Source: a virus | Virus record (IMG/VR): IMGVR_UViG_3300010354_000723 | Coordinates: 1 to 22,614 of that record | Strand: one strand, 5' to 3' | DNA: 22,614 bases | In this document: positions 8,001 to 22,053 of the stretch, in pieces | How the letters are laid out: the number at the start of each line of letters is the position of its first letter | How positions within the stretch are numbered: position 1 is the first letter of the stretch | Position numbers and translations under genes: made by a program | The notes under the pieces: model-generated | Database searches by the model: none | What the model was told of the DNA's origin: nothing | The model's input: only the letters and a program-made list of their open reading frames with translations

Positions 8001-11000
8001 ACGATTATTAACTAGTGATAAAAGTGGTGGGGAAATTAAATTTTTCCCCCCATAAGAAACTGCGACACCAACTATTTTATCAGATCTTTCAAGTCTTAAT
8101 AATCTAGAAACATCTGCTTTTGGTTTTAGAGTTTTATCGGATGAAAATTCAAATCCCTCATTCAACAATCTAAGTTGTTCTATTTTTCCAATATTTGTTG
8201 ACTTTGTTTTTATAATCGCATTTGATCCTAGACTTAAAGTGGTTACTCCAACAACAATCGGAAGTTTTGTATATCCAAAACCTTCAGATATTAATTCTAT
8301 TTCATCTATACCTCCAGTTGCAGTTTTAGAAGTGGTAGAATATTCAAGGACTTCACAATCTGAATTTAGTGTGGTATATCCCAAACCAATATATGAATTT
8401 TTTTCTGGTTCATCTAGAAGAGAAATATTAAATGTAGTGTTACCTATTCCAAAAATAGTATATTCACCACTATATGTGCTATTGATAAAGGTAATTTTCG
8501 AATGATCTTTAACGTCACTATCTGCTGTTAAAATTTCACCAGATTTTTCTAAATTATAGAATAAAGTTTCAGGTAAATTTTCATCATAATTTAAAGTTAA
8601 ACTAGAAGTTGTATTTACACCAACCACTCCACTGTAGAAAGTTGAAAATGTAGTTGTTGATCCGGTAGAAACAAATTCATTCTTGAAATCCCCATCATAA
8701 TAAATTTTGAACTTATATCCAAGTAAAGAATTGTGGGATAAGTTGAAAACAATGTCGTTATTTTTAACTACTTTTAATTGTGGATTTATCTGACTTATTT
8801 CATGCAAACTGCCACCAGATGATCCAACACTTACAGCAATTGGTGGATAAGAAATCGAATCATTATAAGTTTCACACAATTGAATATTATTGCTATCTAC
8901 TTTGTTAACAAAGTAGTCACCCGTAGATAGACCACTAGAAACTAGATCATAAGAATTATAAAAAACTTTATCTCCCGTTTTTAATCCGTGAGAAGAAATA
9001 TTGATTATGTTCGTGTTTGTATTAATTTTTTCCGAACTAAATCCAATTGGATTAATTAAAATTTTATTGTGGATTGAATTATATCTAACCACTACACTGG
9101 ATGCTGTAGTTCCAATTCCAGTTGTCAATCCTGGTTTAACAACTAATGATATTGTATCACCATAAGATAAACCATGTGAGGTGGAAACTGATACACGAGA
9201 AACAACCTTTTTAACATTTGTTGTTACTTCATTAAATGTTGGTTGTAAGTAATAGTTATAATTATCAGATCCATTTCCACTAAAGAAAAGTCCATTTGTT
9301 GTCGTTGTTAATCCTACTTCTGTTACGATACCAATTGTATCTTTAGTCTTATTAATTATGTAAACATGAGTGCTAATGCCACTGGGAATATTGAATAATG
9401 AAGATGTTGGAGTATCTCTAACTTGCAGAGAAGATGATCCTGTTGGTTTAACTAATAAAACTCTTTGATTTGTTTTAAATGGATGATTTGGAATGTATAT
9501 ACTTTGATTTTCTACTGAAATATTGACAGTTTGAATCCCAATTTGAGTTTGAATATTGGTGGATGTTCCTGTATTCAATCCAACACTAACAGAATAATTA
9601 GGATTGAAGTATATTTTCGTATTTTCTTTAGAATCAAAATAATCTGTTTTTAGATCAATAATAATTTTATTGGGATAAAAGTTAACTAAACTTCCAGAAG
9701 TGTGTGCTAAACCAGTTATTCCTCTTGAAACTCTTAAAATATTTAAATCACCAAAAACATTAAGAACAGATAATATCTCTGTTCCTATTCCAATAGTTGT
9801 TCCAATACTTACATTATTTGGAATCGGTGAGACGTAGATATCAGTGACTAATCCTACGGTTGAATTGAGTGGAATTTCATACAAAACAGATGCTGTTTCT
9901 GATGTTACACCAATAGGATGAGACCCATTTAAATTTTTAATTTTATTGGTAGAAACTCCAACTATTTGTACAGTATCACCATTTAACAAATTATGATATG
10001 GATCTATTTTTATTTCAATTTGATTGGAATTTATTCTTGTTACAAGTGCGTTTTCATAAGATTCAATCGTTGTTTCAATATTTTTAATTTGCTTACCAGA
10101 AATAGATTTAATAATAGCTGATGCACCACCTCCATTAGTATCAGTATTATCAAATACTAAAGATTGATTAACTTTATATCCATCACCTTTTACTACAATT
10201 TCAAAATCTTCAACTGATCCATCTGAAATAGATTCAACTATAGAAACTTGTTTAGATATTTTATTAGACTCAATAATAAAATCATTATTAGAATAATTTT
10301 GATTAACTCTATATGGAAATGTGTTTCTAATCAAGTTGGAGTTATTAAAGTCAAAATTCTGAGACAGTGACGAATCTATTTCAAAATTAGATCTATATTG
10401 ATCTCCAATAAAGTAAGGGAACTCACTCTCAAGTGTATTTGTGGTGATATTTGTAGATACTCCAACAAAATAAGCATAAGTTCCATTTGGAAATTCTGGA
10501 GTAACACAAAATCTTCCATTAGAAATATCAAGATCTCCAGAATCCGAGTAAATATGATCCTCTACAAAAAATCCTAAACTAAACTCACTAGGTCTATTTT
10601 CTACATTTGATAAACTTTTTGTATATCCAGATTTCAATAAGTTTATTTGAGAATTTTTATTTTTCGGATCAGAAAATCCATATGGCCCATATATTGGATT
10701 TCCATCCAAACACCATCCAATTATTTTTGAATGATTTCCATTTTCATGATCTAAAAATGAAATTCCTTCCCTGTTTGTAGAATATCCAACTACACCATAA
10801 GACAAATCATCTCCACTTTCAGTTAGTATTTGGTCTGAAAATCTTGCGTAGTTGTTTACAGTTAATGATCTAACGTCACAATCTAAAGTACAATTTTTTC
10901 CGGAATCTTGTACTTTGATGGTCGTGTTATTTGAATTATAATTTGTACCACCATTAACTATGATTACTTTAGAAATACTTCCATTGGTAACAACAGCTCT

Positions 11001-14000
11001 TAATTTTGCTCCCAAACCGTCCCCATTAACAATTAAATCTGGAGATGATGTATAATTTAATCCACTATTTTGAATTTCTACACCAACGATTTTACTATCA
11101 AGTATAATTGGTTTAAGTTGTGCTGAATACCCTTTTTTAATTGTTAAGATAGGTTTTTTATGAAAATTTAAAACAGATGATCCATAATCGGATCCAGATT
11201 CATACAAATATGCATCTACTACACTACCTCTAATTATTGGTGTAGCAGTTATTACTCCAACTGTTCCAGAATACTCTGCTTCAATGTTTAATTGAATTTC
11301 TGGATATTTAAATATTTGTTTGCCAGTTCCTGTGGATTCAAATTTAACATACTTATTTCTATCAAAGTTTGATGAAGAAGGACTTGTTGATGAGAGTCCA
11401 GCATTTGATAATCTAAAATTAGAATCATCTATTTTTAAAATGTAATACTGATTACTAGTTGATAAACCCGATATTGCCGTGGGAGTTTCTGCACCAAATC
11501 CAGGTTCAATTTTATAATTAATTAAATCTCCATTTTTAAATCCATGATTTTTGAAATAAACAGTATCAGAAATCGTTGATATTCCAGTTGGTTTAACAAT
11601 TAGAGAGCGATTTTCATAATTCGATCCTCCATCTTCTACTCTAATTTCAGTTAAAACTCTTTTTCCATTCAATAATCTAAATTTGTGAATTCCTCCAGCG
11701 TTTGCAGTGGTAAATCCAATTGTATTGATACCACTATTAAAATCTGATAGAGTATTAAAAAGTTTAATTGAACTCGTGTTAATAATCTCTGGATAATAAA
11801 TTCCACCATTTACCAAATATCTATCTTGATCTGTATTCGATCCCCCAAAAGTTCCGATTCCTAATTCAGAATTTCCATTAGAATTATATACTATCGGAGT
11901 TCCGTTTTGTAATTTATGAAATTCTAAAAATGTTACAGTATCATTAACTACATTTACACCTCCACCAAAATCAGAGGTTCTACCATTAAAAGGAATTTCT
12001 CTAAATTTAGTTTCAACAATTGGATCTAATATTGCACCAGATCCATTTCCACCAGTAATATAAGATGAAAGAACTCTCTCTACCTCAATTTCATTTGGAT
12101 CAACAATAACTTCTTTTATATTGCCATTTACTACTAAATTTACTAGAGCAGTTGTCCCTACACCAACTTTGGGGTTTGAAACAAGAACTGTTGGAGGTGT
12201 TAAAACGTCATAATCTGAACCAGAGTTTATAACTTTTAAATTTTCCAGAGGTCCATAGTAAATCTTATCATCAGACTTATAGTTTACAATATCAACACCA
12301 TTAATCATAACTCCAACAGAACCCGGAATAGTTTTAGTTCCAGTTCCAGATTTAATATTTGGATTTAATGGAATTCTTTTTAATATTTTTTTTGAAGTTA
12401 ATTTTTTACCACCATTATGTTGAGATAGAGTAAATGTGTGCGTTGAAACGCTTGAAAGTTTTTCAAATTCAATATAATTGTTTGTTCCTATAAATGATCT
12501 GGCATTATATAATCTAATTTTATTTTTTATATCTGAAGGATTTGAGGGAACGACAACTTCAACATAGTATGATTGGTTGAAATTAAGACCAGTAATTGGA
12601 GTTGATGATCCAGTGTAAATTACCTCATCGCCGGTAATAAAAGAAATTTGACTTGTAAAAGATAAAATACTATACTTTGTTTTACCATCAGTTTCAGAAA
12701 CTTTTGGTGATATAAAAATAGTATCTAAATTTGTTGACGAGGTAATATTAATTGTTTCAAATGTTATATTCTTATTAATCGTATAATCTGGTAAAGAATT
12801 AGATGCTACATACAAGTTTTCTGAATTTTCATCATATGTGTTTTGAACATTTACCGTAAGATTTGGATATTTTAAACTCAATCCACTTGAAGATGCATAC
12901 TTTAAATTTTTTCTAATGCTAATTTTTGTATTTGAAGGAATTCCAGATATGTTTTGATCTAAAGTAATAACCTTATTAGAAATTAGTGCCACTATAGCAT
13001 TTTCTAAAATTACGTTTTCAGAATTTCTACTTAAAACATTAACAGTGTCTCCTACCTTTAAACTAGATTTGTCTGGCAACTCATATAATGTTACCTGATT
13101 ATTGTTAAATGATTGAACTTCATATCTGGTTTTAGTATTGTAAATCCAAGAATTGAAAATAGTTTGCTTATAAGTTTTATCAACGTCAGGATTTTCTATT
13201 TTTTCTCCAATATGCTTTACTGAAATAGTATCGCCAATATCCCTAAAGTAAATATCATTTTGATTTTCTAATTCAGATAAAACTCCAGTAATTCTTAATT
13301 CTACTTTCTTTGAAGTATCTCCATTTTCATATCCATAAATTAATTTGTCAGTTCTTATATTGGATCCTATGTTAATTAAATTATTAACTCCAGTACATCC
13401 AAGAAATTGATTTATAGTTTTTTCTGTATATTTGATTACATTAGATCCAGAGATTAATGTTCCACTTTTATCAAATCCAATTGTAGAGTCTACCGTAATT
13501 ACACTTGAACCTACTGAAATATTTTCTAAAACTTTTGTTTTAGGTGTAATTGTGAATGTTCCTTCGATTAAACTTTTTTCATTAAAACCAGCGAACAACT
13601 GTATCTTATAATAATTTGTCGAACCTCTAGAAATAATTTCTACTTCCGAAACAGGAGCAGATGCAGTATCGTCAGAACTTTTAATAACTTGCCCTACAAG
13701 ATTATTTGGATTACTTCCAGAAACTAATTCAGTTACTAAAACTTCTCTTCTTACAAATTCCGCATCAGAAGATCTCAATAAGAATTCTTTCAAATCTAGA
13801 ACTTTTGGATCTACTCCGTAAAGAACATTATATAAGATTCTGAAAGAGTCATCAGTTCCTTTAGACTGATAGAAAGTTCTAGATTCCTTTATAAAATTGT
13901 TTACATTCAATCCAGAAACAAAGTCTACATTTTCAAATCCTGGAGTTAAATCTTTTTTTAGTTTATTATAAAATTCTTTTAAAAATAGAGAACTGAGATT

Positions 14001-14471
14001 TTCAACTCTTGTTCCTTTTTCATGAGTTGCTGATTTTGATGTAGAAAATCCTAATTCTTCTGGATTTAATGAATGATGATATGTTACAATTCCACTAAAT
14101 CCTCTTTTACACCCAGTAAAAGAATTTGTTGTAATTCCAGTGTACGTAATAATTTCATCATCTAATTTAAATAATCCATATTGTGATGGAAATCCTTTTG
14201 TATTATCTACATAAATTTCAGAACTTGTTATTCCAACATATGATGTTAAAGTAGAAATACCAGAAATAACTTCAGGTGTGAGATTATTTAATTTTTTATA
14301 TTGATCTAAATTTTCGGCAATATCAACCGGACCGCCTTGGAACTCTTGCGATATGTAATATTGCTTTAAAAATTCTGATGCTTTAGGAGTTTCTGATATA
14401 ATAAATTCTGGTAATTGATTTTCAACAATCTGTTGAATTTTAACTCTAGCATCAAAACCAGTTGTAATCAT
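2016..14471 (-). CDS. 7: Giant baseplate wedge protein in the gp7 position
   Basis: A single uninterrupted frame of 4151 codons sits between gp6 and gp8, where T4 has gp7 (1032 residues). By position it is the wedge protein that connects gp6, gp8 and the hub-proximal parts. The first 250 residues (starting MITTGFDARVKIQQIVENQL, with FYQSKGTDDSFRILYNVLYG near 205-225) look like the conserved anchoring part. The remainder is beta-rich and low in tryptophan and cysteine, with recurrent VGIGTT/VGVST-like motifs. It also has GGxxY-type units, for example near residues 754, 954, 1094, 1140, 1177, 2064, 3497, 3539, 3914 and 3957. Residues about 1180-1345 resemble a YHYH domain (NPIYGPYGFSDP, then GRFCVTPEFPNGTYAYFVG). 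The start is 1 base after the gp6 stop, and the GAGG that can serve as its ribosome-binding site lies in the last gp6 codons. Identity as gp7 rests on synteny rather than clear overall similarity. Confidence 0.75.
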   Translation of the reverse strand: MITTGFDARVKIQQIVENQLPEFIISETPKASEFLKQYYISQEFQGGPVDIAENLDQYKKLNNLTPEVISGISTLTSYVGITSSEIYVDNTKGFPSQYGLFKLDDEIITYTGITTNSFTGCKRGFSGIVTYHHSLNPEELGFSTSKSATHEKGTRVENLSSLFLKEFYNKLKKDLTPGFENVDFVSGLNVNNFIKESRTFYQSKGTDDSFRILYNVLYGVDPKVLDLKEFLLRSSDAEFVRREVLVTELVSGSNPNNLVGQVIKSSDDTASAPVSEVEIISRGSTNYYKIQLFAGFNEKSLIEGTFTITPKTKVLENISVGSSVITVDSTIGFDKSGTLISGSNVIKYTEKTINQFLGCTGVNNLINIGSNIRTDKLIYGYENGDTSKKVELRITGVLSELENQNDIYFRDIGDTISVKHIGEKIENPDVDKTYKQTIFNSWIYNTKTRYEVQSFNNNQVTLYELPDKSSLKVGDTVNVLSRNSENVILENAIVALISNKVITLDQNISGIPSNTKISIRKNLKYASSSGLSLKYPNLTVNVQNTYDENSENLYVASNSLPDYTINKNITFETINITSSTNLDTIFISPKVSETDGKTKYSILSFTSQISFITGDEVIYTGSSTPITGLNFNQSYYVEVVVPSNPSDIKNKIRLYNARSFIGTNNYIEFEKLSSVSTHTFTLSQHNGGKKLTSKKILKRIPLNPNIKSGTGTKTIPGSVGVMINGVDIVNYKSDDKIYYGPLENLKVINSGSDYDVLTPPTVLVSNPKVGVGTTALVNLVVNGNIKEVIVDPNEIEVERVLSSYITGGNGSGAILDPIVETKFREIPFNGRTSDFGGGVNVVNDTVTFLEFHKLQNGTPIVYNSNGNSELGIGTFGGSNTDQDRYLVNGGIYYPEIINTSSIKLFNTLSDFNSGINTIGFTTANAGGIHKFRLLNGKRVLTEIRVEDGGSNYENRSLIVKPTGISTISDTVYFKNHGFKNGDLINYKIEPGFGAETPTAISGLSTSNQYYILKIDDSNFRLSNAGLSSTSPSSSNFDRNKYVKFESTGTGKQIFKYPEIQLNIEAEYSGTVGVITATPIIRGSVVDAYLYESGSDYGSSVLNFHKKPILTIKKGYSAQLKPIILDSKIVGVEIQNSGLNYTSSPDLIVNGDGLGAKLRAVVTNGSISKVIIVNGGTNYNSNNTTIKVQDSGKNCTLDCDVRSLTVNNYARFSDQILTESGDDLSYGVVGYSTNREGISFLDHENGNHSKIIGWCLDGNPIYGPYGFSDPKNKNSQINLLKSGYTKSLSNVENRPSEFSLGFFVEDHIYSDSGDLDISNGRFCVTPEFPNGTYAYFVGVSTNITTNTLESEFPYFIGDQYRSNFEIDSSLSQNFDFNNSNLIRNTFPYRVNQNYSNNDFIIESNKISKQVSIVESISDGSVEDFEIVVKGDGYKVNQSLVFDNTDTNGGGASAIIKSISGKQIKNIETTIESYENALVTRINSNQIEIKIDPYHNLLNGDTVQIVGVSTNKIKNLNGSHPIGVTSETASVLYEIPLNSTVGLVTDIYVSPIPNNVSIGTTIGIGTEILSVLNVFGDLNILRVSRGITGLAHTSGSLVNFYPNKIIIDLKTDYFDSKENTKIYFNPNYSVSVGLNTGTSTNIQTQIGIQTVNISVENQSIYIPNHPFKTNQRVLLVKPTGSSSLQVRDTPTSSLFNIPSGISTHVYIINKTKDTIGIVTEVGLTTTTNGLFFSGNGSDNYNYYLQPTFNEVTTNVKKVVSRVSVSTSHGLSYGDTISLVVKPGLTTGIGTTASSVVVRYNSIHNKILINPIGFSSEKINTNTNIINISSHGLKTGDKVFYNSYDLVSSGLSTGDYFVNKVDSNNIQLCETYNDSISYPPIAVSVGSSGGSLHEISQINPQLKVVKNNDIVFNLSHNSLLGYKFKIYYDGDFKNEFVSTGSTTTFSTFYSGVVGVNTTSSLTLNYDENLPETLFYNLEKSGEILTADSDVKDHSKITFINSTYSGEYTIFGIGNTTFNISLLDEPEKNSYIGLGYTTLNSDCEVLEYSTTSKTATGGIDEIELISEGFGYTKLPIVVGVTTLSLGSNAIIKTKSTNIGKIEQLRLLNEGFEFSSDKTLKPKADVSRLLRLERSDKIVGVAVSYGGKNLISPPLLSLVNNRTRKKVSSGLLNPKLSGNAITEVLIIEEPKGLESVEHSIFIEKNSNGVGVERILSYNKATGIVEVELTTPAVNGFVNPPFKIDDYIFVEGLVKESTTDELGITTSPGTGFNSSDNGYNFFKVTDYVNEIPARLSYFIGEFTNNAGTLVGIQSYFNSIVNRNNYPIFVVNQIPSIFNDGEKLLVNQLETDLVVEKSSKNLLKISGDYKVKYDDLIYGVKSGNIARVNENIQFSSNYKVDYSSKKTLGWKNDTGKLNNNYQVLPDNDYYQNLAYSIKTSGENYKQNKVLDFDTVKDSVNRLVHPTGLKNFVDVGITSSVTIGIGSDQSLSQVLDFVSEERVDTFNNFDLSLDYLPTSTSSDAVIFKNKKLADYIECLSNRVLQIDDISPSFSSAEFNKDTFIDAYEYSITDQFSKFLIQVVDENKTTVQASELVILNNYDNTYTMNKADLYTGDNLLGDFSGSFAQNGNSAVKFTPTDPLGENYNLKIYRDYFSTDSSTPGIGFTDLGFLRLTGRVENFSTSGITTDIFKSQISTIDTVYSNVFIRNNDTLDMNYFEILAFHDGQNSYVSEYCFDTENNISGSSFGFIGTFGTSLDGGVLKLNFTNNTSNSVTVKAKTVGFGTTASGTGSYRYLVGDQVSGTEKTARLESSHQVSIGNTVVTSYTLGVESTLKSLVRVGVGSTVALHQFLVISDSSRVNIQRYPFLSVGSASTSGIGTFGVETDGVNVFVKFFPDSMFSSSSLEIRKFNQFIYFDTDEINQPETYKYGVAIEDIDTAFYGGLNIFGKDRLSFNLNYQGTPIFEKTFNPGNSAVLNQSTGVFTIVDHFFQTGEELIYTPSSTLPGITPSPVGIGTTLVGGVTFVGDFISGFSTVTGIAATTGFNIGDTITGTSVASGTTITSIGSTFTYFIGDVIGGGSTVITGIANTSVLSIGSSIFNLSNTGIGSIVSIGINSITSSQVVTAGTGVTFYSNNLKTSITLSNVSTGTTFRNRYVTGIVTSICPTRVYAIKISKDTFKISGTSGESAIGFTFTSSGSGNAHQLEMKKKNEKSLITINGVNQYPIIWTPINYTLQNNGGTVGSAVTFIALSGISSIAPRDLIKIDDEYVRVVNVGLGTTSSGPVTGLGTIPIVQVDRGFVGSSATSHIDGSPIRIYRGSYNIVGNKIHFTEAPDGKGNNNRLDFSGLPVPRSTFNGRVFLRKDYTFNKIYDDISEKFTGIGRTFNLTLEGENTSGIEPGSGLVFINDVFQTPDTENNSGNNYTLTSSSTLGITTVTFTSITRPNTNDVIIVPYDVNQNQVPRGGIPITIGSTGGLGYAPLVGASVTAVLGVGGSITAVGVGTTDISGSGYQGGTISIGVTDSVGFGATITATVGAGGTLSFNVINGGSGYVSPKFNIDSPSYENLSIIGVSRLSIGDTTATGIGLSITVNVQESSVTGIGTSFFAVKSFTITKPGYGFNRGDKFKVVGLVTAKGLSQPIEELILNIDETFTDSFACWQLGELDYIDNIKFYQNGIRKRFPLIRNGSLLSFEKKSSDVESNEIDFNSILLIYLNGVMQEPGISYNFDGGTTFTFVEAPKQEDNVAIFFYRGTRGVDSSVIDVNESVKPGDIIKINKNDFIPNTFSQSERIVSLIQSADVVETGIYLGDGIDENNYKPLDWTKQKEDLVINGDYIFKSRDSLEAIVVPATRVIKNINSTDTEIFVDDAQFFKYEENDTNTSINIQRFSGLLIDSSDEPISAGFTAIVSVSSTISSIGILTAGRGYTPNSTITLKIGNPIGVGSTATATASVSSSGIVTSVNITNPGSGYTSSNPPSILPSQPSFTDELISSISFAEGFSGIITGISTSSGTGSNPTAIKFNISHTSASQIDSLLVGYPIVVTQTNIGSAVTSINSSDNDTVGIGTTFFDNIYIVNAISRTGLVGVITCNVLSSSSISGIQTSGEFCGRFSWGRLYGITRSSNPVSVAVSGYTVNSGLTTFPQIVRRGYGLRDGGGLKKQLI

Positions 14472-14472
14472 A

Positions 14473-16344
14473 TTACCTCGTTAATTTTCCGTTTGAATAG
14501 CTTGAAGTTATATCAAAACCAACTCCTGATATTTGCTCACCAGAAGCAATTAAGTCTTTCTTCATATTTATGGTGCTTTTTGACACATCAAAAATCAGGT
14601 ATAAATCTTTAAGTCCAATAACATCATTTGACTCTGGGAATGCTTGTATTTCAATAATACCATTCGAAAGAACAGTAGAAGAAATATTAATAGTATTAAT
14701 AATTATTTCCCCTTTTAGGTAATTTACAGTTCCTACTGACTTTTTAACAATTTGATATTGATCTGGAATTTCTGTTGGTTTAACAATTGAAATAACCCCA
14801 GTTTCTGAATTAGATGCATCTGGAACATCTGAAAAGTAAACAACACTTGGATCACCAACAACAGTAAATCCTGTACTCTTAATATTAAATCCTTTCTGAT
14901 TTCCAATATGGAATCTATTACCAAAACAAATCTCATATTGTGCTGGTGTGTTTAGCACCGCATTCATGTTTCTTCTAATTTTAACTTTAGTAATGTTTGA
15001 GGTAATTGCGGTATCTACATTATCAATAATTTGAGAAACCTTGCTATATTTAAATCTTCCTCCAAATTTATTAAAGTCAATAGATTTAGAGTATTGAGTT
15101 AAGGTATTAATAACATTTGTTCTCAAATTTTGAACATTATTAGTAAATGATGAATTATAATAAACTGTGCTATCAACTTCAACATATAGTAATTTGAGAT
15201 CTATAATTTTTTGATTAATTCCTGCTATAGAATATCTTTTCAGATCATTTAAAATTGAAGTTTTTGCAAAGTCTGATATCGATGTTCCATTTTTTGGTTT
15301 AATGCTGATTAAAACTGTTCCAAACTGTGGAGGATCTAGATCTTCTCCACCAATAATAGAAACAGATTCTGTATTAGGATATATTTGTTGAATGATAGAT
15401 TCATAATCTTTTGAGGTCACAGCACGGTATTGTGATGAATAAACTCTTGGTGCAAAATACTTAACAGAATCTATTGATTCGATTTCAGATCCCCCTTGAG
15501 CAGGACTTACTGTTGTGATCGTAACACTTTGAGTTGGATTAATTACAATACCATTAGAGTCTACAATCGTTCCAGAGAATGTAAATACTCTTGGACCATT
15601 ACCACGTTCACCATCAGTAACAATATAGTCAACTTTGATGGGTGATCCGTTTTCAAGTTTTTTGCCAAAAATATCATCTCCAAACAATAGTTCATATTTT
15701 TCGTCAGAAACTTCTTGAATTAAGAAAATTTCAGACTCTTTATTAATTTCAAAGAAGTTATCGATAACTTTATATGCTCGACTTCCGACTCTGACGCGAA
15801 TGGTTTTTGTATCAACACCAGAATTATCCAATAAAAATCTCTGATTAATTGAAGTATTTGACGTAAAAGTCTTGGTTAAAAATATTCCCTGATAAACAGT
15901 GATGTTATTAAAAGATGCAACTCCATTTGAAACACTTACAGTAATATCTTCTGGCACACAGAAAATATAAGTTTCATTGGTTCCAGATCCCCCAGCGCAT
16001 ACGAGTCCAGATTTCAGTGTGAGTTGAGGAGAAGTGGTGTTTGTTGAGACATTGAATGATATTACTGCTTCAGCAGCACTTCTTGACCGAGGAACATATC
16101 CAACATTGCGAGCAAGTGCAACAACATTTTCACGGAGAGTCGCAGAGTCCAAAAAAGACTCATTGACGACCATATTTGAGTTAAACGCTGTAATATATGT
16201 GTTATACGCTAAAGTATAAATTAAAACAGAAAAATTAGATCCTTCAAAGTCAAAATCCGTGAATGTAGAGTTAGCACGGAGATAATCTTTGATGGATGTC
16301 TTAATTTGATCAAAATCTAGATTTGTAAATTTGGTAAAAGGCAT
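14473..16344 (-). CDS. 6: Baseplate wedge subunit gp6
   Basis: The 623-residue product is close to the 660 residues of T4 gp6, a component of the baseplate wedge that forms the inner ring around the hub and is related to the J-like proteins of simpler phages. The N-terminus is characteristic: FTNLDFDQIKTSIKDYLRAN, then DFEGSNFSVLIYTLAYNTYI, then FLDSATLRENVVALARNVGY within the first 85 residues. A central EYELLFGDD-like segment (KYELLFGDDIFGKKLENG, near 217-234) and AQGGSEIESIDSVKYFAPR (near 284-302) are also typical of gp6/J-like baseplate proteins. It starts 1 base after the gp25 stop (TAA-A-ATG), so it belongs to the same operon. Confidence 0.92.
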   Translation of the reverse strand: MPFTKFTNLDFDQIKTSIKDYLRANSTFTDFDFEGSNFSVLIYTLAYNTYITAFNSNMVVNESFLDSATLRENVVALARNVGYVPRSRSAAEAVISFNVSTNTTSPQLTLKSGLVCAGGSGTNETYIFCVPEDITVSVSNGVASFNNITVYQGIFLTKTFTSNTSINQRFLLDNSGVDTKTIRVRVGSRAYKVIDNFFEINKESEIFLIQEVSDEKYELLFGDDIFGKKLENGSPIKVDYIVTDGERGNGPRVFTFSGTIVDSNGIVINPTQSVTITTVSPAQGGSEIESIDSVKYFAPRVYSSQYRAVTSKDYESIIQQIYPNTESVSIIGGEDLDPPQFGTVLISIKPKNGTSISDFAKTSILNDLKRYSIAGINQKIIDLKLLYVEVDSTVYYNSSFTNNVQNLRTNVINTLTQYSKSIDFNKFGGRFKYSKVSQIIDNVDTAITSNITKVKIRRNMNAVLNTPAQYEICFGNRFHIGNQKGFNIKSTGFTVVGDPSVVYFSDVPDASNSETGVISIVKPTEIPDQYQIVKKSVGTVNYLKGEIIINTINISSTVLSNGIIEIQAFPESNDVIGLKDLYLIFDVSKSTINMKKDLIASGEQISGVGFDITSSYSNGKLTR

Positions 16345-16345
16345 T

Positions 16346-16756
16346 TTATCTTCTTGTTGCCTCTAAAATGTAGGTAAATTGTTGTTGTGGAAAGTCTTGT
16401 CCAACAATATCAAAATAAATTGTCACATCAAAAGCGTTTTCATCGTAACGTGGACTTACTTCTACTCGTACATTTTCTGCACGTTGCTCATAAATCGTAA
16501 TTGCATTTTTAATTTGAGTTTCAACTGTTGATGCACTTGCAAAATCGACAAAATCAAAAAGACTTCCCGTTACATTCGACCCGAAATTTGAATTAAAGAG
16601 TCTTTCACCAGGAATTGTTTGCACAATATTACGAATGGATCTCTTAATTGCATCAGCATCCTTAAGGACAAGGATATCCCGAGTCACCGGATGAATATCA
16701 AAAGACAAACTAATGTCTTTAAATTTTCGAGATATCCTTTGTACCACCGTAAACAA
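16346..16756 (-). CDS. 25: Baseplate wedge subunit gp25 (GPW/gp25 family)
   Basis: This 136-residue protein has the gp25 fold signature: a short N-terminal strand region, then DADAIKRSIRNIVQTIPGER and LFNSNFGSNVTGSLFDFVD, an ETQIKNAITIYEQRAE helix and a C-terminal VEVSPRYDENAFDVTIYFDI sheet. T4 gp25 is 132 residues and acts in the baseplate wedge next to gp6, which matches the gene order. The best start is a TTG at 16756: no ATG lies upstream in frame, and later starts would remove the conserved N-terminal QRISRKFKDISLSF segment. A late promoter motif lies 15 bases upstream. An alternative GTG at 16747 would shorten it by only three residues. Confidence 0.92.
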   Translation of the reverse strand: MFTVVQRISRKFKDISLSFDIHPVTRDILVLKDADAIKRSIRNIVQTIPGERLFNSNFGSNVTGSLFDFVDFASASTVETQIKNAITIYEQRAENVRVEVSPRYDENAFDVTIYFDIVGQDFPQQQFTYILEATRR

Positions 16757-18870: not shown

Positions 18871-18951
18871 AAACTTGGTTTTTTGTTTTATATAGTAAAA
18901 AAAATTTTTATGTTTGAGGTTTATAATGATCTCGTTTGGGTAACACTTTGT

Positions 18952-18957
18952 AGACTA
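18952..18957 (-). promoter_or_regulatory. Minus-10-like element of the array type at the left border
   Basis: The minus strand reads CCCTG-TAGTCT-ACAAAG. This resembles the CCCTG-TAGAAT and CCCTG-TAGACT elements in front of two genes of the GC-rich array. Here no ATG lies 23-26 bases downstream; the next gene (AbrB-like) starts 92 bases later. It may be the border copy of the repeated element, driving that gene with a longer leader. Confidence 0.4.
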
Positions 18958-18982
18958 CAGGGACCCTTGAATTTAAGCTTTA

Positions 18983-19034
18983 GGGGGGCGGGGGCTTATA
19001 ACCGCCTTACGCGCCCCGCGCCCCCGAAGGGCGC
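18983..19034 (-). terminator. GC-rich inverted repeats after the small-gene array
   Basis: Just past the stop of the last array gene, two alternative hairpins overlap. A compact one pairs 19018-19023 with 19029-19034 (GCGCCC, loop TTCGG on the minus strand, GGGCGC). A larger imperfect one pairs 18983-18994 with 19014-19025. Neither is followed by a T run on the minus strand, so intrinsic termination is uncertain, but the position at the end of the array suggests a 3'-end or transcription barrier. The rest of 18860-19075 shows no supported gene. Confidence 0.5.
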
Positions 19035-19075
19035 CATCGGGGACACTGCTGCTGCACGAACGCATGAGGCGGCGG

Positions 19076-19252
19076 TCACCCCCACTGCACCTCCCGCACG
19101 TCGTCGCGGTGGACATCAGCGAACTGCCCTGCCCACGTGACGGCATCGGTTCCCCACGGCGGGGTCAGGCGGTTGAAGTTGCTGCCGTCGTTGCGATACG
19201 CAACCCAGATGGTCTGGCGATCGGTGAGGCGGGTGGCAGGGGAGAGGCGCAT
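19076..19252 (-). CDS. Small array protein 1, 58 residues, unknown function
   Basis: The frame from the ATG at 19252 translates as MRLSPATRLTDRQTIWVAYR, then NDGSNFNRLTPPWGTDAVTW, then AGQFADVHRDDVREVQWG. It has three tryptophans and a mixed charge pattern, with no membrane or signal segment, so it is likely a compact soluble protein. It is the last gene of the GC-rich array and is preceded by the best promoter in it: TTGACC, 17 bases, TAGAAT, ending 24 bases before the ATG. A GC-rich hairpin region follows its stop. I do not recognise a family; the promoter, leader and unbroken frame are the reasons for calling it. Confidence 0.65.
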   Translation of the reverse strand: MRLSPATRLTDRQTIWVAYRNDGSNFNRLTPPWGTDAVTWAGQFADVHRDDVREVQWG

Positions 19253-19276
19253 GGGTCAGGTGTCGGTTGCTTTGAA

Positions 19277-19305
19277 ATTCTACAGGGTCAGGGGGCAGGG
19301 GTCAA
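19277..19305 (-). promoter_or_regulatory. Sigma70-type promoter for array gene 1
   Basis: Minus-35 TTGACC at 19300-19305 and minus-10 TAGAAT at 19277-19282, separated by 17 bases, match consensus at 5/6 each. The minus-35 contains the TGA stop of the preceding gene (19302-19304). The leader between minus-10 and ATG combines CAAAGCAA from one leader type with CCGACACCTG from the other. Confidence 0.8.
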
Positions 19306-19526
19306 TACCCCAACCACACCAGGAACTCCCCGCAGTCAACCCGCTCCCCTTCCATGTGCCCATAGTCGGCAGCGAAGTCGGAGAGGCAGGAATGCATGGC
19401 AGCAGACTCCAGGGCGATGTGCCAGGCGATGGTGTCGTTGGCAGGGTGAGAGCAATCCCAGAGAATGTCGGAGAAGGTCGTGCCAGGGGCATACACGTTC
19501 AGGCAGTCACGGAGGGCGGTGGGCAT
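19302..19526 (-). CDS. Small array protein 2, 74 residues, unknown function
   Basis: I choose the ATG at 19526, giving MPTALRDCLNVYAPGTTFSD and ending HMEGERVDCGEFLVWLGY. An in-frame ATG eight codons earlier (19550) would add MGTKANDL. However, those eight codons lie in a 24-base leader that is repeated before another array gene, where it is not in frame with the gene, so it is more likely untranslated or a mini-cistron. The protein has three cysteines and several histidines and is predicted helical (SDILWDCSHPAND, TIAWHIALESAAMHSCLSDF); no family is recognised. Its stop is inside the minus-35 of the next promoter. Confidence 0.65.
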   Translation of the reverse strand: MPTALRDCLNVYAPGTTFSDILWDCSHPANDTIAWHIALESAAMHSCLSDFAADYGHMEGERVDCGEFLVWLGY

Positions 19527-19527
19527 C

Positions 19528-19551
19528 AGGTCGTTTGCTTTGGTTCCCATA
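19528..19551 (-). repeat. 24-base direct repeat in gene leaders, copy 1
   Basis: Identical to 21046-21069, about 1.5 kb away. Both copies lie between a minus-10-like box and the start codon of a small array gene, so they are repeated regulatory leaders rather than coding repeats. Confidence 0.85.
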
Positions 19552-19556
19552 CTGTA
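19528..19556 (-). promoter_or_regulatory. Array leader type A with minus-10 element, copy 1
   Basis: A TACAGT minus-10-like box (19551-19556) lies 24 bases before the ATG at 19526. Positions 19528-19551 are identical over 24 bases to 21046-21069, the leader of another array gene. No convincing minus-35 is present; the position it would occupy lies in the hairpin at 19558-19587. Confidence 0.6.
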
Positions 19557-19557
19557 G

Positions 19558-19587
19558 ACCCCCCACCCGACGAATCGGGCAGGGGGT
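19558..19587. terminator. GC-rich stem-loop between array genes
   Basis: Five bases pair around a CGAA loop (19566-19570 with 19575-19579), and after a small internal mismatch five or six more C-G pairs extend the stem. On the plus strand it is followed by GGGCGG and four T. On the minus strand it lies 8 bases past the stop of the 55-residue gene and directly before the next minus-10 box. It may terminate minus-strand transcripts even without a clear T run, and forms a stem-loop plus promoter unit. Confidence 0.6.
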
Positions 19588-19595
19588 GGGCGGTT

Positions 19596-19763
19596 TTAGA
19601 ATTGGATCGGATCGGCAGTCGGGGCGCTGATTTCGTTATAGTATGAGGCGCAATCCTCAATGTTTGCATTAGTCACGTCGTTGACCAAGGTATCAAGAAT
19701 CTCAAGAATTTGATTGCCGTTGTTACCACGACGCAGAAGAGAGATTGCCAGGTTCGAAGTCAT
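19596..19763 (-). CDS. Small array protein 3, 55 residues, unknown function
   Basis: From the ATG at 19763 the product reads MTSNLAISLLRRGNNGNQIL, then EILDTLVNDVTNANIEDCAS, then YYNEISAPTADPIQF. It is helical and mildly acidic. The pattern of an N-terminal LAISLLRxGNxGxQIL helix followed by EILDTL and a C-terminal proline-containing tail looks familiar from small hypothetical proteins of cyanophages, but I cannot name a family. It follows the 46-residue gene after 39 bases and has no visible minus-10 box. It was probably read from the promoter upstream of the 57-residue gene. A stem-loop follows its stop. Confidence 0.7.
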   Translation of the reverse strand: MTSNLAISLLRRGNNGNQILEILDTLVNDVTNANIEDCASYYNEISAPTADPIQF

Positions 19764-19802
19764 GAATCAAAAAGGAGTAAGAGTGAATTAGGGGAGAAAC
19801 AG

Positions 19803-19943
19803 TTAGGGTGCCAAATGGGCAGGAGATCCACAGGAAAGATAGAACGCTACCATGCGCTCCGCTTCATCTAACGTGCGGAACCATTGTGATCTCCATTCGC
19901 ACTGATTGTAGGGGACCTGATAACGAACTTCGTAGCGGACCAT
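19803..19943 (-). CDS. Small array protein 4, 46 residues, unknown function
   Basis: The frame from the ATG at 19943 gives MVRYEVRYQVPYNQCEWRSQ, then WFRTLDEAERMVAFYLSCGS, then PAHLAP. A short beta-like N-terminus with alternating aromatic and charged residues leads into an amphipathic helix (TLDEAERMVAFYLSCG). This strand-turn-helix layout is common in tiny phage proteins that display or modulate host factors, but nothing identifies its target. It sits 38 bases after the 57-residue gene. Its leader shares an 11-base stretch (positions 19966-19976) with the leader of the following gene (19776-19786). Confidence 0.65.
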   Translation of the reverse strand: MVRYEVRYQVPYNQCEWRSQWFRTLDEAERMVAFYLSCGSPAHLAP

Positions 19944-19981
19944 TTGTGTGAATTAAGAAGGGAACAGTAAGAGTGATTAAC

Positions 19982-20155
19982 TCAAGCAGCGATCAGAACA
20001 TCATCCTCCCAACGGTAGAAGGTAAGAATTTCATCATAGATCCGATCAGCAACCTGATCAACATGCTGACGCTCCGACTTCAGAATTGCTGCCTTACATT
20101 GGGCGGCGATCTCATCAATGGAGAGAGCACGATCAGTAGCGGGATTGTAACGCAT
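19982..20155 (-). CDS. Small array protein 5, 57 residues, unknown function
   Basis: The chosen start is the ATG at 20155, giving MRYNPATDRALSIDEIAAQC and ending YDEILTFYRWEDDVLIAA. An open frame continues upstream to 20284, but it would read through the promoter/leader element and through the end of the preceding gene, so those codons are not believed. The protein looks all-helical: a first helix (SIDEIAAQCKAAILKSERQ), a second (HVDQVADRIYDEILTFYR) and an acidic tail. Its own minus-10 box TACAAT lies 26 bases upstream. It probably heads a short operon with the 46- and 55-residue genes. Confidence 0.65.
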   Translation of the reverse strand: MRYNPATDRALSIDEIAAQCKAAILKSERQHVDQVADRIYDEILTFYRWEDDVLIAA

Positions 20156-20187
20156 GGGGTTCGGTTGAGTGAACTGAAAGTATTGTA
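20156..20187 (-). promoter_or_regulatory. Array leader type B with minus-10 TACAAT, before array gene 5
   Basis: TACAAT at 20182-20187 (5/6 to consensus) is followed by ACTTTCAGTTCAC and a CAACCGAACCCC leader ending at the ATG. The same order, TACAAT-ACTCTCAGTTCAACCG, precedes the gene at 20405. No clear minus-35 is seen. Confidence 0.6.
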
Positions 20188-20228
20188 CAGGAGTCTTTAG
20201 GGCGCTGCCGTTCCCGTGTGCCAGTGCC

Positions 20229-20405
20229 TCAATCGGCATAGAGGGAGGTGAAGTCCTCCACAAACTCCCGTGCCTCATCGCCACTCATGCGGGAGATCAT
20301 CTCACGGGCGACGGTCTCCCAGGAGAAGTCGTCTGCCAGGTCAAAGATGGCGCACCGTGCCTCAGAGGCGGAGAGTTCGGCGGCGTTGATCTGGGCGTAG
20401 GTCAT
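20229..20405 (-). CDS. Small acidic array protein 6, 58 residues, unknown function
   Basis: Translated from the ATG at 20405 it reads MTYAQINAAELSASEARCAI, then FDLADDFSWETVAREMISRM, then SGDEAREFVEDFTSLYAD. It is acidic and helical, with a SGDEAREFVEDF helix whose acidic-aromatic pattern recurs in small phage proteins, possibly mimicking or binding a basic partner. There is no membrane segment. It has its own TACAAT box 23 bases upstream and stops 41 bases before the next minus-10 element. Its coding sequence is visibly more GC-rich than the structural block. No family can be named. Confidence 0.65.
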   Translation of the reverse strand: MTYAQINAAELSASEARCAIFDLADDFSWETVAREMISRMSGDEAREFVEDFTSLYAD

Positions 20406-20434
20406 GAGGTGTCGGTTGAACTGAGAGTATTGTA
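20406..20434 (-). promoter_or_regulatory. Array leader type B with minus-10 TACAAT, before array gene 6
   Basis: TACAAT at 20429-20434 stands 23 bases before the ATG. The leader AGTTCAACCGACACCTC is nearly identical to that at 20688-20705. The minus-35 region lies over the end of the preceding gene and shows no good match. Confidence 0.6.
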
Positions 20435-20447
20435 GAGGGTCTGGGGG

Positions 20448-20687
20448 TCAGAACGCCACCAGTTGGTCCAGATCCCATTGTGGCACAGTCTGAACGGTGC
20501 CGCCACAGTTCTTCCGCAACCAGGCGTTGATGTGCTTCGTGGTGGTGGCGCTCCACTTGTAAGCGGTGCGGATCCACCCTTTGCCAGGCACAAGGGCGGC
20601 AACGGGGGTCGTGTAGGAGTACAGGATGCAGGTCCCGTCTGCCAGTTGCACTTCGGTTTGGTTGCTGCCGATCTGTTGAACGATCAT
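20448..20687 (-). CDS. Small array protein 7, 79 residues, recurring phage type
   Basis: The 79-residue product starts at the ATG at 20687, directly after a type B leader. It begins MIVQQIGSNQTEVQLADGTC, then ILYSYTTPVAALVPGKGWIR, then TAYKWSATTTKHINAWLRKN. The order of a small beta-sheet with LYSYTTPVAA, a GKGWIRT turn and the SATTTKHINAWL helix is one I associate, from memory, with a widespread family of small hypothetical proteins in cyanophages and other marine phages. The conserved Ser/Thr/His cluster and lysines could contact nucleic acid, but the function is unknown. It is the longest gene of the array and follows the 46-residue membrane-type gene. Confidence 0.75.
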   Translation of the reverse strand: MIVQQIGSNQTEVQLADGTCILYSYTTPVAALVPGKGWIRTAYKWSATTTKHINAWLRKNCGGTVQTVPQWDLDQLVAF

Positions 20688-20716
20688 GGGGTGTCGGTTG
20701 AACTGATAGAAGTCTA
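20688..20716 (-). promoter_or_regulatory. Array leader type B with minus-10 TAGACT, before array gene 7
   Basis: TAGACT at 20711-20716, preceded by CCCTG as at the left border, lies 23 bases before the ATG at 20687. The leader contains AGTTCAACCGACACCCC. The expected minus-35 position falls inside the end of the preceding gene and is a poor match. Confidence 0.55.
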
Positions 20717-20721
20717 CAGGG

Positions 20722-20862
20722 TCAGCGGGCGATCAGGTCGCCTGCAGTGTACAGTGCCTCTGCTGTCACATGGCGGATCGGGCGGATCGGTTCCCATAGG
20801 ATGCAGATCAGCACGGCAACGGCAGCGACTTTCAGCATGGAGGGGGAAGCGGTGCGGGTCAT
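20722..20862 (-). CDS. Small array protein 8, 46 residues, probable single membrane span
   Basis: The frame from the ATG at 20862 gives MTRTASPSMLKVAAVAVLIC, then ILWEPIRPIRHVTAEALYTA, then GDLIAR. Residues about 9-23 (MLKVAAVAVLICILW) form a hydrophobic segment after a basic N-terminus, so it could be an inner-membrane protein with the C-terminus outside, or a signal-anchor; at 15 residues the span is short. The start is 3 bases after the stop of the 59-residue gene (TGA-CTC-ATG), so the two are co-transcribed from the promoter at 21069-21074. A small membrane protein of this kind could act in host envelope modification or superinfection exclusion. That is inference. Confidence 0.6.
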   Translation of the reverse strand: MTRTASPSMLKVAAVAVLICILWEPIRPIRHVTAEALYTAGDLIAR

Positions 20863-20865
20863 GAG

Positions 20866-21045
20866 TCAGCGCCAAGAGAGGAAGGTGGCAGGGTTGCCGT
20901 AGTCTGCGATCACGATGCCGTTTTGACGGATCTCACAGTAACCGTGCTCCTCTGCCAGATCGTAGCACAGATCGTAGGCGCGATCGTGATCGGTGGTGGT
21001 GTTCTCCCAGGGAGCGGAGGGGCAGATCACGTCGTAGCGGGTCAT
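20866..21045 (-). CDS. Small array protein 9, 59 residues, unknown function
   Basis: The start is taken as the ATG at 21045, giving MTRYDVICPSAPWENTTTDH, then DRAYDLCYDLAEEHGYCEIR, then QNGIVIADYGNPATFLSWR. The longer frame up to 21126 would translate the promoter and leader and is rejected. The layout is an N-terminal strand, a helix (DRAYDLCYDLAEEHG) and a C-terminal beta hairpin (YCEIRQNGIVIADY), a small alpha/beta fold typical of tiny phage proteins that read like domain fragments. It leads a two-gene unit with the 46-residue membrane-type protein. An eight-codon mini-frame in its leader ends at ATGA overlapping this start. Confidence 0.65.
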   Translation of the reverse strand: MTRYDVICPSAPWENTTTDHDRAYDLCYDLAEEHGYCEIRQNGIVIADYGNPATFLSWR

Positions 21046-21069
21046 AGGTCGTTTGCTTTGGTTCCCATA
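21046..21069 (-). repeat. 24-base direct repeat in gene leaders, copy 2
   Basis: Second identical copy of the leader at 19528-19551. The flanking genes of the two copies are unrelated in sequence, which argues for movement or recombination of the leader itself rather than duplication of a whole gene. Confidence 0.85.
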
Positions 21070-21074
21070 GTATG
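21046..21074 (-). promoter_or_regulatory. Array leader type A with minus-10 CATACT, copy 2
   Basis: CATACT at 21069-21074 lies 23 bases before the ATG at 21045. The 24 bases 21046-21069 are identical to the leader at 19528-19551. In this copy an ATG in the leader opens a mini-frame MGTKANDL whose stop overlaps the gene start as ATGA. The upstream part of the gap (21075-21156) holds the palindrome GGTATACC at 21143-21150 and no supported gene. Confidence 0.6.
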
Positions 21075-21156: not shown

Positions 21157-22053
21157 CTACGCTGCCACGTTGAACCTTCCGCTGTTGAAGTTAGCATTAG
21201 AAAAGACCTCACGATTCACCAGTTTGAACATACCAAACTCATTGGAGAGAACATAACCTTCTGCATCAATTCTGTTGCCATAGAGATAAGCAGCAGGACC
21301 ATCATTGCGGCAGAGGAACAGGCAGTCATCTTTGATCGACTTCACCAATGCCCACAGACGCAGCAGGTTAGCATCACAATCAAAGTCTTCGGGGTTGACT
21401 TCTTCACCAGCACGAATGCAGGCATTGATTTGCTGTTTGATCTTTGCCGCTTCCTTAACAGAAACAAACTCACAGGCAGTAGACATTTGACGGGCGAAAT
21501 CTACCACTTCCTGAACATCAGCGAAGGAGGTCTGATTGTGCAGGATGTATGCATTCGGTTGCACGAACAAAACATCATCAGTGCTCTGCAGATTCACCAT
21601 CAAAGGTTCTGCCCAACTGTCGCGCAGATCATCGTTTGCTTCATACACAGTGTGCGGAGCGATGATAATTTTCTGAGAAACTACCTCACCGAACTTATAA
21701 GTGATCGTATTAGGATTATACTCATCGCTACCACCAAACCCCACAAAATCACCTTGAATGATAGATTCGCAACGAGGCAACCCATCAAAACAAGCGTGAA
21801 GAATTGCTGCAACTTCGCCTTGGTAGAATTGATCGATCTCAGCATGATTGTGAGCAATACGAATCTTTTTCTTGTTAAAGACTGCCTTGGTTCCTACAAA
21901 GAACTCACCGCAGGCAGGATCAATCCCCCACACGATTGCAGGGGCACCATCAATCTTCACGCTCAATTTACCGCGAGCAGTGAACCAATCAAGACAGGAA
22001 AGATCACCCGTGAGAATGGTATCTTCGGGGTGCTCAAGGTGTGTGTTTTTCAT
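21157..22053 (-). CDS. Polynucleotide ligase/nucleotidyltransferase-superfamily protein
   Basis: The 298-residue protein has the ordered motifs of the covalent nucleotidyltransferase fold shared by DNA ligases, RNA ligases and capping enzymes. SVKIDGAPAIVWG places motif I (KxDG) at Lys33-Asp35-Gly36, the lysine that would accept AMP. FFVGTKAVF follows at 51-59, SIIQGDFVGFGG at 98-109 is a motif III-like strand, AEGYVLS at 264-270 fits motif IV (Glu265-Gly266), and MFKLVNREVF at 275-284 fits motif V (Lys277). The N-terminal LEHPED...LTGD segment and the long helical insert around 180-245 are not those of classical T4 ligases, so the substrate is open: RNA end repair, DNA nick sealing or another adenylylation. 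It is separated from the upstream gene by a terminator. Confidence 0.7.
   Translation of the reverse strand: MKNTHLEHPEDTILTGDLSCLDWFTARGKLSVKIDGAPAIVWGIDPACGEFFVGTKAVFNKKKIRIAHNHAEIDQFYQGEVAAILHACFDGLPRCESIIQGDFVGFGGSDEYNPNTITYKFGEVVSQKIIIAPHTVYEANDDLRDSWAEPLMVNLQSTDDVLFVQPNAYILHNQTSFADVQEVVDFARQMSTACEFVSVKEAAKIKQQINACIRAGEEVNPEDFDCDANLLRLWALVKSIKDDCLFLCRNDGPAAYLYGNRIDAEGYVLSNEFGMFKLVNREVFSNANFNSGRFNVAA

Follow-up and report, generated by a model that had tools for sequence, protein, structure and literature searches.

Nine very small genes follow one another on the minus strand of a 22,614-nt stretch of viral DNA (IMG/VR record IMGVR_UViG_3300010354_000723, positions 1 to 22,614; hereafter the window), and the question raised by this locus is why similar short promoters and leaders should stand before genes that are unrelated to each other. 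The window (22.6 kb) is a fragment of a T4-like cyanophage (Kyanoviridae), as its gp25, gp6 and gp8 genes are matched by both Pfam and PHROG. We think it likely that the small-gene island is an array of cassettes resembling PeSL (promoter-early stem-loop) elements, in which one and the same unit serves the expression of single genes and recombination. PeSL elements consist of a stem-loop and a sigma70-like promoter; each genome has many copies of them, in hyperplastic regions whose small genes are non-essential, and homology breaks at the element. Promoter and terminator activity and the excision of mini-circles are also counted among their marks. They were reportedly described in T4-type phages by Arbiol and colleagues in 2010 and by Comeau and colleagues in 2014.

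The array and its leaders

The nine open reading frames (ORFs, g1 to g9 in the order of reading) lie between 21045 and 19076 and have the sizes that were claimed in an earlier note on this DNA, made from the letters alone. Homologs of each gene are present in 34-75 of the fetched loci, with a ratio of nonsynonymous to synonymous substitution rates (dN/dS) of 0.09-0.53, i.e. they are under purifying selection, and we therefore regard them as real proteins. Six of the nine genes carry a -10-like box (TAnnnT; CATACT at g1) plus a conserved, G-poor leader, and the spacing given in the earlier note was found again, the hexamer being separated from the ATG by 23, 23, 23, 24, 24 and 26 nt. The leader cores are indeed shared by unrelated genes: three belong to type A (TAnnnT-N4-TCAGTTCAA(A/C)CGAC) and three (g1, g8, g9) to a second type, CAAAGCAA(A/C)CGAC. 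Two of the latter are identical to the type-B form ATGGGAACCAAAGCAAACGACC, also seen in front of unrelated genes in other contigs, and the third is a hybrid. The features of the array are, in the order of reading (aa, amino acids):

21046..21074, minus strand, type-B leader of g1: CATACT (21074-21069), then ATGGGAACCAAAGCAAACGACCT; the same leader stands before other genes elsewhere
20866..21045, minus strand, g1, 59 aa (MTRYDVICPSAPWEN..); 56 homolog loci, dN/dS 0.29; PHROG 17176
20722..20862, minus strand, g2, 46 aa; 48 homolog loci, dN/dS 0.53; begins 3 nt past the g1 stop and has no cassette of its own
20688..20716, minus strand, type-A cassette of g3: TAGACT TCTA TCAGTTCAACCGACACC; matrix score 35 bits
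20448..20687, minus strand, g3, 79 aa; 43 homolog loci, dN/dS 0.13; PHROG 5643
20406..20434, minus strand, type-A cassette of g4: TACAAT ACTC TCAGTTCAACCGACACC; matrix score 48 bits
20229..20405, minus strand, g4, 58 aa (MTYAQI..); 45 homolog loci, dN/dS 0.41
20156..20187, minus strand, type-A cassette of g5, with a short insertion: TACAAT ACTT TCAGTTCACTCAACCGAACCCC; matrix score 26-28 bits
19982..20155, minus strand, g5, 57 aa (MRYNPATD..); 53 homolog loci, dN/dS 0.16
19803..19943, minus strand, g6, 46 aa; 69 homolog loci, dN/dS 0.09; no recognised cassette here
19596..19763, minus strand, g7, 55 aa; 75 homolog loci, dN/dS 0.27; no recognised cassette here
19558..19587, minus strand, stem-loop of 13 pairs with a TTCG loop, terminator-like, abutting the -10 box of g8; fold -28.2 kcal/mol, z -2.4
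19527..19556, minus strand, type-B leader of g8: TACAGT, then ATGGGAACCAAAGCAAACGACCTG; type-B units also occur elsewhere
19302..19526, minus strand, g8, 74 aa; 35 homolog loci, dN/dS 0.13
19253..19282, minus strand, hybrid leader of g9: TAGAAT TTCAAAGCAACCGACACCTGACCC
19076..19252, minus strand, g9, 58 aa, the last gene of the array; 34 homolog loci, dN/dS 0.32
19018..19035, minus strand, stem-loop GGCGCCC-TTCG-GGGGCGC downstream of g9, a likely terminator closing the island

The type-A scores come from a matrix of 28 positions which was trained on other phage contigs and not on the window. The best of 200 dinucleotide shuffles of the island reaches 5.9 bits, as opposed to 26-48 bits for the window leaders, and the matrix finds no further site above 6 bits in the 22.6 kb window. 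A minus-10-like string at the left border (18957-18952), counted as an extra copy in the earlier note, has no cassette score and was rejected as a seventh cassette.

The same unit in other viral contigs

In other viral contigs the type-A unit is the commonest one, with 435 scored copies. An ORF of at least 35 aa lies at the expected distance behind 419 of them (96%, as opposed to 19% at random sites), and 413 of these ORFs begin with ATG. Behind the cassettes stand 264 distinct proteins in 60 families, with a median length of 62 aa; all these cassette counts include related phages and are not independent. The exact 17-mer of leader A was found in 32 viral contig stretches, mostly a few bases before the ATG of differing small genes in GC-rich islands, and wider leader patterns matched 74 and 18 stretches, partly of the same contigs. 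The scan of related phages, set as a check in the earlier note, thus came out as proposed there: the same promoter-leader precedes different small genes. Conversely, one gene family can stand behind several leaders, since the g1 family is found behind leaders A, B and C elsewhere and the g9 family behind A, B and hybrid leaders; relatives of g6 carry type-A leaders in other loci.

The first search patterns came from the window's own leaders, and therefore the test on cultured phage S-PM2 and the sampling by DUF6267 protein, both described below, weigh more, being less dependent on these patterns. Two patterns of the leader were scanned against 84,980 genomes of bacteria and archaea and gave no match, which speaks against a host origin. 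The short pattern CAAAGCAAACGACCNATG alone was rejected as a diagnostic, as it has many matches in other phages and before other genes. No description of this repeated leader was found in the open-access literature, which is not proof of absence.

Anatomy of the unit

Information content is high at -13..+26 relative to the TAnnnT box and low beyond; part of the core invariance was imposed by the search pattern, while the free positions are also informative. The TAnnnT box is strong, its spacing to the ATG is fixed, and about 28% of the units have an extended -10 (TGn). Upstream stems of at least 6 bp are present in 36% of units as compared to 8% in shuffled sequence, whereas the leader itself is unfolded and has a Shine-Dalgarno-like sequence in 7% of units. 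In nearly all type-B units a hairpin directly adjoins the -10 box, and the same leader can follow different hairpins; hairpins related to the 19558..19587 stem-loop of the window occur at the same place in other type-B units. A TGGCACA box is present in 33% of units (0.5% in shuffles), some 37 nt ahead of the -10 and often directly before the hairpin. This box also occurs in the window, e.g. at 20223 on the minus strand, and in phage ACG-2014f. We picture the full unit as an optional TGGCACA box, a stem-loop, a -10-only promoter (TAnnnT), an unstructured A/C-rich leader without Shine-Dalgarno sequence, and the ATG of a tiny gene.

The conservation reaches about 26 nt beyond the first base of the -10 box, i.e. 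into the predicted 5' untranslated region with its TCAGTTCAA core, and one could take this for an RNA regulatory element, or for a binding site of a small RNA or protein, that coordinates the tiny genes beyond what an ordinary promoter does. We find this unlikely, since the leader has no structure, the window gave no match to a known RNA family (Rfam), other phages replace the core by other sequences (dialects, see below), and the invariance of the core is in part a product of the search.

Homology breaks and probable shuffling

If the unit serves recombination, DNA homology between loci should break at it. Among cross-locus pairs compared at the cassette, which are not independent events, both flanks were shared in 33 cases and only one flank in 398, while across gene middles both halves were shared in 268 cases and one half in 89. 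Pairs with the same downstream gene align from about -14, and pairs with the same upstream gene align to about +26. In pairs that are more than 90% identical on one side of the cassette and unrelated on the other, the left break lies at -19..+10 in 26 of 32 cases and the right break at +19..+32 in 14 of 15. Alignment ends are 4- to 10-fold enriched at +15..+35 and depleted inside genes. The PeSL-like reading of the earlier note is borne out in these respects: the same leader stands before different genes, many stem-loops lie upstream, and homology breaks at the cassette. The break pattern is the one expected of homologous recombination through the unit, which we infer from it, although it does not prove the mechanism.

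In the mechanism that we propose, the stem-loop would terminate the transcript of the preceding gene and the TAnnnT promoter would be read by the host RNA polymerase with its main sigma factor. Because a unit of terminator, promoter and leader precedes one gene, each tiny gene would be expressed alone, probably early in infection (TATAAATA-type promoters are those of late expression). As a near-identical unit stands before many genes, co-infecting phages could recombine through it by homologous recombination, and the outcome would be gain, loss and re-ordering of genes at one address, with the DUF6267 gene on one side and the baseplate genes gp25 and gp6 on the other. The tiny genes themselves may serve host takeover or counter-defence.

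Several points weigh against this proposal. Gene boundaries without a recognised cassette also break often (a control that is poorly resolved because of spurious ORFs), and the cassette may therefore mark the breaks and not cause them; moreover, the pairs counted are not independent events, as mentioned above. A clear stem-loop immediately precedes just one of the six leaders in the window (19587-19558), and about 40% of the family members lack even a 5-bp perfect stem. Finally, no conserved -35 was found in the cassette family and the promoter is read from sequence only, so that early transcription by the host polymerase is something we infer. The conservation of the leader could be for expression alone, in which case it would persist solely as a good host-type promoter and translation leader, and shuffling would be illegitimate or due to gene transfer at any gene boundary. 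The frequent breaks at island gene boundaries, also in the absence of a recognised type-A cassette, would fit this explanation, as would the unstructured leaders, suited to initiation, and the gene families that stand behind clearly different leaders. However, as expected of a homologous crossover, near-identical pairs break at both ends of the shared unit; there is a depletion of alignment ends just beyond the unit, inside genes; and some of the units of a phage are near-identical to each other, even at non-promoter positions, while other phages have other dialects. We thus consider a role in expression alone possible but rather doubtful.

A fixed genomic address

The address of the array was judged by the neighbours present in 83 loci, each of which has two cassettes or more. 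The conserved neighbours in these loci agree with the order DUF6267, island, p58, glycosyltransferase-like gene, gp25, gp6, and the DUF6267 gene was seen in 58 of the 83. The window has this layout, the island lying between the DUF6267 gene on one side and a 58-aa gene, a glycosyltransferase-like gene and gp25 on the other:

21157..22053, minus strand, DUF6267 gene, the fixed upstream neighbour of the island; Pfam PF19782, E 5e-79
16346-16756, minus strand, gp25, a conserved gene beyond the downstream end of the island
14473-16344, minus strand, gp6, likewise conserved beyond the downstream end

The islands hold 2-12 type-A copies each, and in three loci (L073, L097, L111) cassettes are also found beyond the other side of DUF6267. 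When loci were sampled by the DUF6267 protein, i.e. independently of the leader, type-A cassettes lay downstream in 22 of 34 distinct loci as opposed to 7 of 60 upstream regions. Cultured phage S-PM2 has 11 cassettes just before gp25, and every one of them is followed by ATG. Single units were found before cobS in the marine phages Bellamy, S-SM2, S-SCSM1 and SynMITS9220M01, and in S-T4 before a gene in the place corresponding to cobS, next to a peptidase gene. Most of these single units are preceded by a GGGGG-CCCCC hairpin and then T's, a terminator-like arrangement (L143-L146, L148); the single cobS-type unit may be the ancestral form.

A fixed address, cassette-sized genes in one orientation and a recurrent TGGCACA box, present far more often than in shuffles (33% against 0.5%), are reminiscent of integrons, and a recombinase acting site-specifically on this box or on the stem-loop might be envisaged. 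Such a system is very improbable here: of the proteins of the window and the cassette families that were tested, none scored above threshold as a recombinase, two thirds of the units have no exact TGGCACA box, and the breakpoints lie in the leader and not at the box.

Leader dialects

In lower-GC relatives some of the same gene families stand behind other leaders. Within 15 kb of phage ACG-2014f (L142, KJ019106 36.4-51.4 kb), CTATACTA-N4-CATACCAAA is repeated 17 times, one copy having a mismatch, and the motif is absent from eight other named phages; in the sampled stretch its copies precede the ATGs of small genes. S-SM2, SynMITS9220M01 and S-SCSM1 (L137, L140, L141) have repeated promoter-leader strings of their own, e.g. 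TATTCTATAAGAGTCAAAGGAACAGACACCGATG. As the same layout is found with differing leaders across phages, the layout seems to be general in cyanomyoviruses and the leader sequence lineage-specific. The earlier note had called the array a GC-rich analogue of PeSL; the PeSL-like layout stands, but GC-richness is not its essence, since lower-GC relatives and other cyanophages use different leaders.

We also speculate, with considerable reserve, that the island is a "cassette port" before gp25, a promoter-driven counterpart of the integron that works through homologous recombination and holds exchangeable anti-host or counter-defence genes, with the dialect as the recombination address. If so, a common dialect would mean a common gene pool, to which phages of another dialect would mostly not belong.

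Comparison with known systems

Like the PeSL elements of T4-type phages, the cyanophage units are numerous within a hyperplastic small-gene region, with adjacent stem-loops (predicted terminators) and junctions within the element. The likeness to the PeSL of T4 and RB49 concerns the described layout, and no sequence kinship is claimed. Unlike PeSL, the cyanophage unit has no conserved -35 and has a long, conserved, A/C-rich 5' leader without Shine-Dalgarno sequence; moreover, the units are at one fixed address, in a GC-rich island of AT-rich genomes, they have lineage dialects, and the hosts are cyanobacteria. The fixed address and the lineage dialects are new relative to PeSL, the kind itself being already known.

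In the S-PM2 "ORFanage" (ORFs 017-050) few stem-loops were found and PeSL-type shuffling was judged unlikely (Puxty et al. 2015, PMC4503421). That region is similar to ours in as much as it belongs to the same kind of phage and contains small ORFan genes upstream of baseplate genes, with rarely conserved synteny. However, the 11-cassette array lies further on, in a neighbouring region, and most of its genes are missing from the annotation or mis-annotated. Recombination through the units would provide a sequence-level mechanism for the gain and loss of tiny unknown genes by cyanophages, a question not settled for S-PM2. The position of the island before gp25 fits a hot spot of small genes that lies between gp46 and gp25 (Sullivan et al. 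2010, PMC3037559); the portion of that paper considered here reports gene content and describes no repeated promoter-leader unit. Halovirus HF2, an archaeal virus, has intergenic repeats carrying promoters, i.e. likewise repeated promoter units, according to the portion of the report considered (PMC8707807). Integron gene cassettes share with the array a fixed platform and small exchangeable cassettes, but most cyanophage units have their own promoter, and no integrase or attC-type recombination was found among the scanned proteins and units.

Genes carried by the cassettes

Most cassette gene families have no known function, and only a few exceptions were matched. S-PM2p072 (L068:10029-10463) matches anti-restriction PHROG 36653 with E 1.7e-79, a family that may include S-PM2p072 itself, and its similarity to Pfam ArdA is weak (E 0.013, below the cut-off). 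A HicA-like cassette protein is also below the Pfam cut-off (E 9.5e-05), whereas one PD-(D/E)XK nuclease is above it (E 6.8e-13). HicA-like small proteins were seen behind type-A or type-B units in L074, L123 and L025. Judging from these similarities, a role of the cassette genes in host takeover is plausible. Because some cassettes carry possible counter-defence or attack genes (ArdA-like anti-restriction in S-PM2, HicA-like, PD-(D/E)XK nuclease), the array may be a place to seek anti-host functions; the hosts concerned are abundant photosynthetic bacteria.

The S-PM2 array extends over about 21.5-24.6 kb of AJ630128 (L068 9230-12305). Three of its 11 cassette sites lead to genes that are annotated with that start (p072, p241, p242). 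The annotated start of p240 lies 48 nt further upstream and takes in the promoter, i.e. it is too early. Other sites lack any annotation in the sense direction, and on the opposite strand p071 and p074 have been annotated there. The cassette is thus a searchable tag for genes which annotation misses or puts on the wrong strand, with 60 families so far.

Further features of the window

The structure model of g3 (pLDDT, predicted local distance difference test, 83) gave no PDB match with E <= 0.001, and that of g9 is too poor for fold comparison (pTM, predicted template modelling score, 0.26). The GC content is about 57% in the island (19.0-21.0 kb) as opposed to about 30% in the structural genes, and at third codon positions it is unequal across the array, with 0.72-0.83 in g1-g4, g8 and g9 and 0.43-0.54 in g5-g7, which suggests that the array genes may be of mixed origins. 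Near DNA matches in named phages were limited to Synechococcus phages and marine single-cell viruses. A search of the window for transfer RNAs gave none. Beyond gp6 the window contains:

2016-14471, minus strand, 4151-aa protein, directly after gp6
425-1981, minus strand, gp8 (Pfam/PHROG)

The gene order gp25-gp6-long ORF is common to the window and S-PM2, where p081 is a very long ORF in the same place as the 4151-aa protein.

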